From: Paraburkholderia phenazinium
GTDB lineage: Bacteria; Pseudomonadota; Gammaproteobacteria; Burkholderiales; Burkholderiaceae
Assembly: GCF_900142845.1 (NCBI RefSeq)
Contig: NZ_FSRU01000001.1
Span: forward strand, 2,728,001-2,792,000
Length of the DNA stretch: 64,000 nucleotides
Direction: 5' to 3'
Positions 48,068 through 49,374 of this stretch are shown here, in pieces (positions within the stretch are counted from its first letter, which is position 1; each line of letters starts with the position of its first letter). The position numbers were made by a program, and so were the translations under genes. Under the pieces are notes generated by a model. It saw nothing but the letters and a program-made list of their open reading frames with translations, had not been told where the DNA came from and ran no database searches.

Positions 48068-48589
48068 CTACTTCGCAACCGCCCTGCGCTTTCTCGGCGA
48101 GGACACGACCTTTGCGTCTTCAACCGTTGGGTGACTGGTCGGAGGCAAACCGATGTCGGGATCAACGCCGGTAAATCCCATTTCGTGTGCGATTTGCCGC
48201 AGCCTGGCTACCGTAATCGGGAAAGCTTGTAGCGCAAAGAAATGGACAACTTCGGCGCAATCCTCATCTCGAACCCACCCACTCTTTGCCGACACGAAAA
48301 CAAACTCACCGATCATGGTTACGGAAAACGACCGGTCTTCGTCTTCACGCCCGTCCCCCTGGAATCCCTCAAGCTTAACCGTCAGATCGATCTCAGCCGT
48401 CTCGCCAGGCGAACTTTTGGTGGGCATGATCGACTCGGCGGATGTCCAGGTACGGGTGGCGCCACCGTCCCCGTCGTGGGCGACAGCATCGATAAAGCGC
48501 TCCGCCGTCAATTTCTTCACGCGGAAGTCGATTAGACGAAAATCCGTTGGACTCAGTGCTCTAGCGGCTTTTCGGCTTCGTGTTTCCAT
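48068..48589 (-). CDS. SecB-like chaperone of a toxin-antitoxin-chaperone module
   Basis: A 173-residue protein. Its order of segments matches the SecB fold: an N-terminal strand FRLIDFRVKKLTAERF, a long middle strand pair (EIDLTVKLEGFQ, RSFSVTMIGEFVFV), then a helical end ALQAFPITVARLRQIAHEMGF followed by proline-rich text. TAC-type SecB-like proteins bind the antitoxin's extension and protect it. The start at 48589 lies 37 bases inside the hicB gene, and it is last in a three-gene operon. The SecB assignment rests on the fold pattern and context, not a strong sequence match. Confidence 0.7.
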   Translation of the reverse strand: METRSRKAARALSPTDFRLIDFRVKKLTAERFIDAVAHDGDGGATRTWTSAESIMPTKSSPGETAEIDLTVKLEGFQGDGREDEDRSFSVTMIGEFVFVSAKSGWVRDEDCAEVVHFFALQAFPITVARLRQIAHEMGFTGVDPDIGLPPTSHPTVEDAKVVSSPRKRRAVAK

Positions 48590-49029
48590 TTAGAAATTTC
48601 TTTGTAGGTAGACGTTGTGACTGCGAACTCCGCACTCTCGACATGGCTATGTGTATGCGTGTGTTCGTGGTTATGAATCGTTACGCTGCGCGCACCATTC
48701 ACCTCGTTCTCAATGGAAATCCGAACGAACTCATTGAGAGTCAAACCACGCCGGGCCGCTTCCATCTGAGCTTGCTTATGGAGATCCCTGGGCACGCGCA
48801 CGTTGAAAACCCCGCTGCAGGGTTTGTCCGGCGCGACACCTTCTTCGGCACAGGTCGCCAGATAAAATTCGACGGCCTCTACGAAAGCTGAATTCAACGC
48901 ATCAAGCGTTTCGCCTTCGTAGTTGACAAGATCATCGATGAACAAGATCTTTCCGTGAAGTATCTTGTCCTCCAGACTGAAATCAATGGATCCTGCATAA
49001 CCTTTGTGCTCAAAAACTTTATCTTTCAT
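48553..49029 (-). CDS. hicB: HicB-family antitoxin with a C-terminal extension
   Basis: A 158-residue antitoxin. Residues 1-70 form the partly degenerate RNase H-like HicB domain (GKILFIDDLVNYEGETLDAL, EAVEFYLATC). Residues about 74-110 form a ribbon-helix-helix DNA-binding domain (VFNVRVPRDLHKQAQMEAAR). Ordinary long HicB proteins end near residue 110. Here about 48 residues follow: a histidine-rich stretch (HNHEHTHTHSH, 119-129) and then TYKEISKWKHEAEKPLEH. An aromatic/basic tail like this is typical of chaperone-addiction sequences. The ATG at 49029 has GGAG upstream, one base after the hicA stop. Confidence 0.9.
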   Translation of the reverse strand: MKDKVFEHKGYAGSIDFSLEDKILHGKILFIDDLVNYEGETLDALNSAFVEAVEFYLATCAEEGVAPDKPCSGVFNVRVPRDLHKQAQMEAARRGLTLNEFVRISIENEVNGARSVTIHNHEHTHTHSHVESAEFAVTTSTYKEISKWKHEAEKPLEH

Positions 49030-49030
49030 C

Positions 49031-49291
49031 CTATTCTCCGGCATCCATTAAACCGAATTCGCGGAGCTTCTCCACGACGTTCCGTACGGAATAAACTTTG
49101 ACGATCGACCCCGGATGCGGTTTATGGAGAAAAATCTTTCTGCCACTACCATCAAAAAATGTTCTGTACGAGCCGCCCTTCTTCGTCTTTTCCGCGAACC
49201 CGAAATCCTCCATGAGCACGACCCTCTCGTCCCATGAAAAGTCTGCCGGAAACTCGGCGACACGTTGGCGTAACTTCTCTAGCTTCGACAC
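49031..49291 (-). CDS. hicA: HicA-like mRNA interferase toxin
   Basis: An 86-residue protein of the HicA family, whose members cut mRNA and stop growth. It has the KKGGSYRTFF strand, FLHKPHPG and the final helix VRNVVEKLREFGL. At the position of the GSH motif of many HicA toxins there is GSY; the LHKPHP motif is kept, as in a recognised HicA subgroup. It is the first gene of the operon with hicB and the SecB-like gene. Two inverted repeats lie just upstream. Confidence 0.85.
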   Translation of the reverse strand: MSKLEKLRQRVAEFPADFSWDERVVLMEDFGFAEKTKKGGSYRTFFDGSGRKIFLHKPHPGSIVKVYSVRNVVEKLREFGLMDAGE

Positions 49292-49321
49292 GAACTATAG
49301 GTGATGAGTTGGGTGGATTGC

Positions 49322-49336
49322 AACTAAAAGTTAGTT
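49322..49336. promoter_or_regulatory. Inverted repeat 1 upstream of hicA
   Basis: AACTAA-N3-TTAGTT, a perfect 6-base inverted repeat 31 bases before the hicA start. A likely site for HicB or the HicAB complex. Confidence 0.5.
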
Positions 49337-49350
49337 ACAGGTGCGTTGCA

Positions 49351-49374
49351 CACTCTAACACTGCACTTAGAGTG
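49351..49374. promoter_or_regulatory. Inverted repeat 2 upstream of hicA
   Basis: CACTCTAA-N8-TTAGAGTG, a perfect 8-base inverted repeat about 60 bases before the hicA start. Together with the 49322-49336 repeat it suggests cooperative autorepression of the operon. Confidence 0.55.

Follow-up and report, generated by a model that had tools for sequence, protein, structure and literature searches.

Does an antitoxin that carries an additional C-terminal tail depend on the protein encoded directly behind it? This question is raised by a compact three-gene locus of Paraburkholderia phenazinium, located at positions 48068 to 49374 of a 64,000-nucleotide stretch of contig NZ_FSRU01000001.1 (assembly GCF_900142845.1; hereafter the window), in which a HicA toxin gene, a HicB antitoxin gene and a third gene follow one another on the minus strand. 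Gene order, the toxin and antitoxin families, the predicted SecB fold of the third protein, the conservation of the HicB tail and the association of such tails with downstream partner genes argue, with a probability of about 0.8, that the locus is a chromosomal HicAB toxin-antitoxin-chaperone (TAC) module whose HicB would be chaperone-dependent. According to excerpts of an earlier report, TAC pairs are generally HigBA, HicAB or MqsRA, with HicB found less often, and a HicAB TAC of Methylomonas methanica was tested in Escherichia coli in 2016, where control depended on the chaperone (PMC5105189). SecB-like partners of HicAB, mentioned in a preliminary description of this DNA made from the sequence alone, thus do exist. 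The HicAB-SecB kind of TAC is already known, and the proposed module is a variant of it; what is new is a chaperone family missed by sequence models, an invariant alternating-histidine motif in the tail, and the link between tail and downstream partner.

Toxin and antitoxin genes

The hicA gene (49291-49031, minus strand, 86 residues, GTG start) matched PF07927 with 31.3 bits (Pfam cut-off 27), and hicB (49029-48553, minus strand, 158 residues, ATG start) matched PF05534 with 63.5 bits (cut-off 21) over residues 56-103, giving a type II pair of known family. A single base (49030) separates the two genes, while the third gene (48589-48068, minus strand, 173 residues, ATG start) overlaps the end of hicB by 37 bases (48553-48589). 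The preliminary description had reported this packing together with the HicA and HicB identities, and both are confirmed by the coordinates of the open reading frames (ORFs) and the Pfam scores.

The HicA motif reads KGGSYRTFF, with LHKPHP kept. In the catalytic motif of HicA a histidine is expected after GS, where the protein of the window carries tyrosine. HicA frames, recognized by an HxPH motif, were found in 64 of 79 loci including the window (15 gave none), and GS was followed by Arg in 47 of them, by Gly in 8 (GSGSR in six), by Ala in 4, by Lys in 1 and by Tyr in 2 (the window and locus L005), the remaining 2 lacking GS. None of the 64 frames carried histidine at this position. Since the histidine is missing throughout the branch sampled, the tyrosine need not be a sign of a dead toxin, and HicA is presumably an active RNase.

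Predicted fold of the third protein

The third protein matched no Pfam family up to an expectation value (E) of 10, and no NCBIfam, PADLOC or PHROGs entry. The profile search against SecB (PF02556) that the preliminary description had suggested likewise returned no match to it; in its own genome PF02556 was found at one place only, the export SecB at C2:2810503-2810919 (188.7 bits). An AlphaFold2 model of the third protein (predicted local distance difference test, pLDDT, 74.5; predicted template-modelling score, pTM, 0.68) displays four strands followed by a long helix, which is the SecB topology. All 18 Foldseek matches against the PDB at E ≤ 1e-3 were SecB or the SecB-like chaperone of Mycobacterium tuberculosis, and VIA-align also ranked SecB and Rv1957 as the best matches of the model. 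A SecB fold is thus supported by structure prediction, in line with the SecB-like character proposed earlier, and no unlike fold was obtained. We do not place the protein in PF02556, and both its SecB homology and the presence of a SecB-homologous chaperone gene in the operon would hold at the level of the fold only. The third gene is a candidate dedicated TAC chaperone.

Conservation of the HicB tail

The HicB core ends near residue 111 and is followed by a tail of about 47 residues (residues 112-158; 48556-48696, minus strand), a candidate region of the chaperone-addiction (ChAD) type. Matches to HicB end at residue 116 or earlier, and none covers 80% of the query, among the 30 listed of 1074 plasmid records and in the 12 phage records; the C-terminal extension is absent from these two-component relatives. 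The entire tail is present in P0008-P0017, another ten proteins of the database (61-85% identity over 98-100%), besides a 99% copy, which argues against a chance extension. An alignment of 12 sequences (the window, P0008-P0017 and L004) revealed the extra C-terminal segment noted in the preliminary description to be a separate conserved module, in which H119, H121, E122, H123, H125, E144, W148, E151 and H158 are invariant. Across H119-H129 a histidine occupies every second residue, as on one face of a beta-strand. Since this stretch, HNHEHTHTHSH (residues 119-129; 48643-48675, minus strand), which the preliminary description had taken for a linker, lies outside the gene overlap, it is the part of the tail whose conservation the overlap cannot explain. 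The HicB C-terminus reads ...PLEH, and the terminal histidine is shared by all 12 aligned proteins, the window included.

A wider set of 101 tailed HicBs, grouped into 46 tail clusters at 50% identity of the tail, ended in His in 30 and in Asn in 8 clusters, compared with His in 3 of 71 untailed HicBs; HicB tails strongly favour His or Asn as their last residue across partner types and overlap geometries.

Association of tails with downstream partners

Genome contigs were scanned with the HicB alignment and the best 80 of 104 confirmed loci were kept, so that the sample leans to relatives of the window's HicB; the HicB frame was readable in 78 of the 80 (not in L034 and L064). A HicB was counted as tailed if its tail had at least 25 residues, and as its partner we took a same-strand ORF of at least 90 residues starting between -60 and +30 from the HicB stop. 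Such an ORF lay behind 20 of 22 tailed but only 7 of 56 untailed HicBs (Fisher p 8e-11, with ORFs called mechanically and loci that are not independent). Raising the tail limit to 30 left the counts unchanged, and lowering it to 20 gave 22 of 26 versus 5 of 52.

Sorted by eye, 11 of the 20 partners were of SecB type (L005, L006, L007, L008, L010 as the least sure, L011, L013, L015, L030, L069 and L077), and 8 belonged to a second type (L048, L050, L075, L076, L080, L082, L083 and L084). A third kind of partner, 165 residues long and matching neither Pfam nor NCBIfam, was observed at L071:6500-6994 behind a HicB with a 78-residue tail. Among the SecB-type partners, L005 is the only proven homologue of the window's third protein: a hidden Markov model (HMM) of the window family, run over 1,690 ORFs and the partners of the fetched loci, scored only the window gene and its L004/L005 copy above threshold. 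Alignment of the third protein to the distant partner L069 by hhalign gave a probability of 1.7, and PDB searches with L069 and L011 returned only weak matches to unrelated proteins. The SecB type of the distant partners, assigned by eye, is thus putative.

The two types, so assigned, differ in their tails. The first 30 residues of the tail contained HxHxH in 9 of 12 SecB-type loci (window included) versus none of 10 second-type loci (p 0.0005), and HxH in 10 of 12 versus 2 of 10 (p 0.008). After kin had been collapsed by hand (the window with L005, three Marinomonas, two methanotrophs), HxHxH still separated 5 of 8 from 0 of 10 (p 0.007).

Comparison with known systems

A close likeness is offered by Mmet-TAC of M. 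methanica MC09 (HicAB Metme_2813/2812 with SecB-TA), which shares HicAB, a SecB-like chaperone and a C-terminal extension of the antitoxin, although its tail ends in ...ALEKQYA and that of the window in histidine, as far as a translated reverse primer alone allows the comparison (excerpts of PMC5105189). The same source describes TAC antitoxin tails as highly variable and transferable. The M. tuberculosis system HigBA1-Rv1957 (Mtb-TAC; PDB 5mtw) is built on HigBA instead of HicAB. In the excerpts of PMC6377645, the HigA1 tail residues W108, R110 and Y114 contact the chaperone, and the ChAD peptide EVPTWHRLSSYRG has no histidine strand, unlike the tail in the window; Rv1957 and the third protein share 7% identity in a structural alignment (PDB 5mtw).

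CmdTAC of E. coli ECOR22, as presented in parts of PMC11618068, likewise combines a toxin, an unstable antitoxin with a long C-terminal tail and a SecB-like chaperone, and provides a model for a release trigger, in that a phage capsid protein pulls the chaperone away. Its toxin, however, is an ADP-ribosyltransferase and CmdA ends in LAA for ClpXP, whereas the window encodes HicA and a HicB ending in histidine; the capsid trigger is demonstrated for CmdTAC. Classical two-component HicAB systems (PF07927/PF05534) comprise toxin and antitoxin families as in the window, but neither tail nor third gene. A word search of the open literature, which says only that the words do not co-occur, returned no paper on a histidine-rich TAC or HicB, on a third gene of Burkholderia HicAB, or on non-SecB chaperone addiction.

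Alternative explanations

The overlap between hicB and the third gene complicates the reading of the tail. The ATG of the chaperone gene (48589-48587) spans the codons of Lys147 and Trp148 (AAA TGG; Trp148 at 48588-48586), and Lys143-Glu144 (AAAGAA) sits at the position expected for the ribosome-binding site of the third gene. The C-terminal half of the tail (YKE..KW...H) could consequently owe its conservation chiefly to the DNA, which supplies the start codon and the Shine-Dalgarno region of the partner gene, rather than to a role in binding; we consider this explanation less likely than not. Across 21 loci with a partner (window included; starts assigned mechanically), the final Trp codon starts at +1 relative to the partner start in 8 (ATGG in 7, TTGG in L007); in another 6 it starts at -16 to -13, within a Shine-Dalgarno-like TGGAG, TGGGAG or TGGGG; 3 loci had no Trp in the stretch read. 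Part of this coincidence is built in, since any codon ending in A before TGG itself makes an ATG. In addition, 4 of the 21 loci (L013, L050, L080 and L084) have their Trp at a distance from initiation signals, and 38 of 46 tail clusters, with various overlap geometries, end in His or Asn. In view of these overlaps, the weight that the preliminary description had put on the aromatic segment of the tail is nevertheless not supported.

The TAC module could alternatively be an ordinary two-component HicAB, with the SecB-fold protein as a co-travelling accessory (a general or phage-sensing chaperone) and a passive or regulatory tail. Most of the loci sampled (56 of 78) have an untailed HicB, and two tailed ones (L052 and L078) have no partner by the rule used; yet tail and partner co-occur, the tail is conserved to its last residue, and the one HicAB TAC tested depended on its chaperone (excerpts of PMC5105189), so that we regard this explanation as unlikely. 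Even less probable, in our estimate, is that the alternating-histidine strand binds zinc, nickel or copper and so makes the stability of HicB, or its binding to the chaperone, dependent on the amount of metal. The invariance of H119, H121, H123 and H125 in all 12 aligned proteins would suit such a site, as would the recurrence of HxHxH in SecB-type loci with partners that show no detectable relationship. However, no metal site is demonstrable from sequence, second-type tails carry VNHNV-like strands without HxHxH (0 of 10), which fit recognition through a beta-strand equally well, and the word search gave no supporting paper. For the metal-sensitive antitoxin suggested earlier, nothing speaks beyond the histidines themselves.

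Several points weigh against the TAC assignment itself. The overlap confounds the invariance of W148 and E144 as a sign of a binding motif. The third protein matched no PDB sequence, whether searched as a single sequence or as a five-row profile, and its comparison with the genome's own SecB by hhalign was negative. Its model was built on five sequences, and the structural matches are distant, with Foldseek TM-scores of 0.41-0.54 (by query length) at root-mean-square deviations (rmsd) of 4.8-8.2 Å, and VIA-align rmsd values of 4.0-7.2 Å to the SecB rows. The 80-locus sample is biased to relatives of the window's HicB and its loci are not independent; 10 SecB-type partners at other loci were recognized by eye, by their length, position and segment pattern, and the family HMM gave L007 an E of 1.1 and L011 an E of about 7, neither of them significant. 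Finally, the LAA ending, a common though not defining trait of known TAC antitoxins said to serve as ClpXP signal (PMC11618068, in part), is absent from the window's HicB and from all 12 aligned proteins; without this signal, degradation of the antitoxin may work differently.

Proposed mechanism

For the TAC module, we infer tail binding, chaperone dependence, HicA activity and a trigger of the following kind. HicB would neutralize HicA, the putative RNase, and its tail would act as a chaperone-addiction region, HicB being unstable or aggregation-prone unless held by the SecB-fold protein that the overlapping gene downstream encodes. Partner recognition probably falls to the alternating-histidine strand (residues 119-129), perhaps helped by the region around Trp148 towards the C-terminus and by the terminal histidine. 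If something drew the chaperone off, such as proteins unfolded under stress or, as happens in CmdTAC, a phage protein, HicB would be lost and HicA released.

A second partner family

In place of the SecB-like gene, a member of an undescribed family of about 107 residues stands behind 8 of the 22 tailed HicBs; the family also occurs in L085 and L086. Its members have 92-113 residues, with 16 invariant columns in eight aligned sequences (alignment A4), and matched neither Pfam (six members scanned) nor NCBIfam (three scanned). The predicted structure consists of a helix and a long hairpin (five models with pLDDT 59.0-81.5, the best with pTM 0.57) and gave no PDB match in a structure search. A class-wide search with A4 found matches in 5 of 369 genomes, including two complete HicA-HicB-partner triads (L085 and L086), while L087 and L089 contain stops or are cut short. 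The P. phenazinium genome itself carries two solitary homologues, detected at E values of 1.5e-10 and 7.4e-10 and located at C1:3737612-3737848 (L088) and C1:498857-499138 (L090), for which no HicA- or HicB-like neighbour was seen by eye in the listed ORFs of the 3.2-kb stretches. By analogy with SecB, which stands in this relation to the TAC chaperones, these may perhaps be a free-standing form of the family.

The tails of both partner types share a C-terminal His or Asn. Gene order and conservation suggest the tentative view, at somewhat less than even odds, that exchangeable tails tie one antitoxin core to unrelated helpers, either a SecB-fold protein via the histidine strand or the 107-residue protein, which would then be the non-SecB chaperone of a TAC-like system.

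Locus layout and distribution

The noted stretch extends at its upper end (49374) to 83 bases upstream of the HicA start. Within this region lies an operator-like inverted repeat, GTAACTA-N5-TAGTTGC (49320-49338, minus strand), overlapping a TTGCAA -35-like hexamer; the repeat was observed in perfect form, GCAACTA-N5-TAGTTGC, at L005:3413-3431. The promoter-like match at 49323-49294 is weak, with 1 found against a mean of 0.7 in shuffled sequences. A -10-like TATAGT ends two bases before the hicA GTG, a spacing that would fit a leaderless mRNA or another promoter.

The Paraburkholderia metagenome-assembled genome behind L004/L005 shows the identical gene order and the identical 37-base overlap, which L006 and L069 share in length (in L005, L006 and L069 the starts were assigned mechanically). 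A degraded locus was set aside because all three reading frames are open, and homologues down to about 40% identity and the conserved overlap argue against a mis-called third gene. A prophage or defence island was set aside from a survey of the flanks only, which hold one CAAX-protease-like and one GNAT gene.

The third protein is rare. Its protein family comprises five database proteins, one being a 99% near-copy of the window's, and it found a match only in its own genome among 398 genomes of the bacterial family (single sequence, E ≤ 0.001) and in 2 of 144 genomes of the genus (five-row profile, E ≤ 0.1). A relative, G430 (C12, about 665493-667129; L092), has the site without the module: its left and right flanks are 73-77% identical to those of the window, and the flank matches lie 144 bp apart compared with about 1.6 kb in the window, which points to the module as an insertion of about 1.5 kb between the CAAX-protease-like and GNAT genes.

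Conclusion

The histidine strand offers a small, testable element for partner specificity, and the overlap analysis serves as a warning that Trp conservation in such tails may reflect the start of the next gene. A chaperone as divergent as the one proposed here is missed by sequence models, and the antitoxin tail may be the better flag for TAC systems. If the family of about 107 residues does the same job, chaperone addiction would be a general way to make an antitoxin conditional, employing more than one helper fold.
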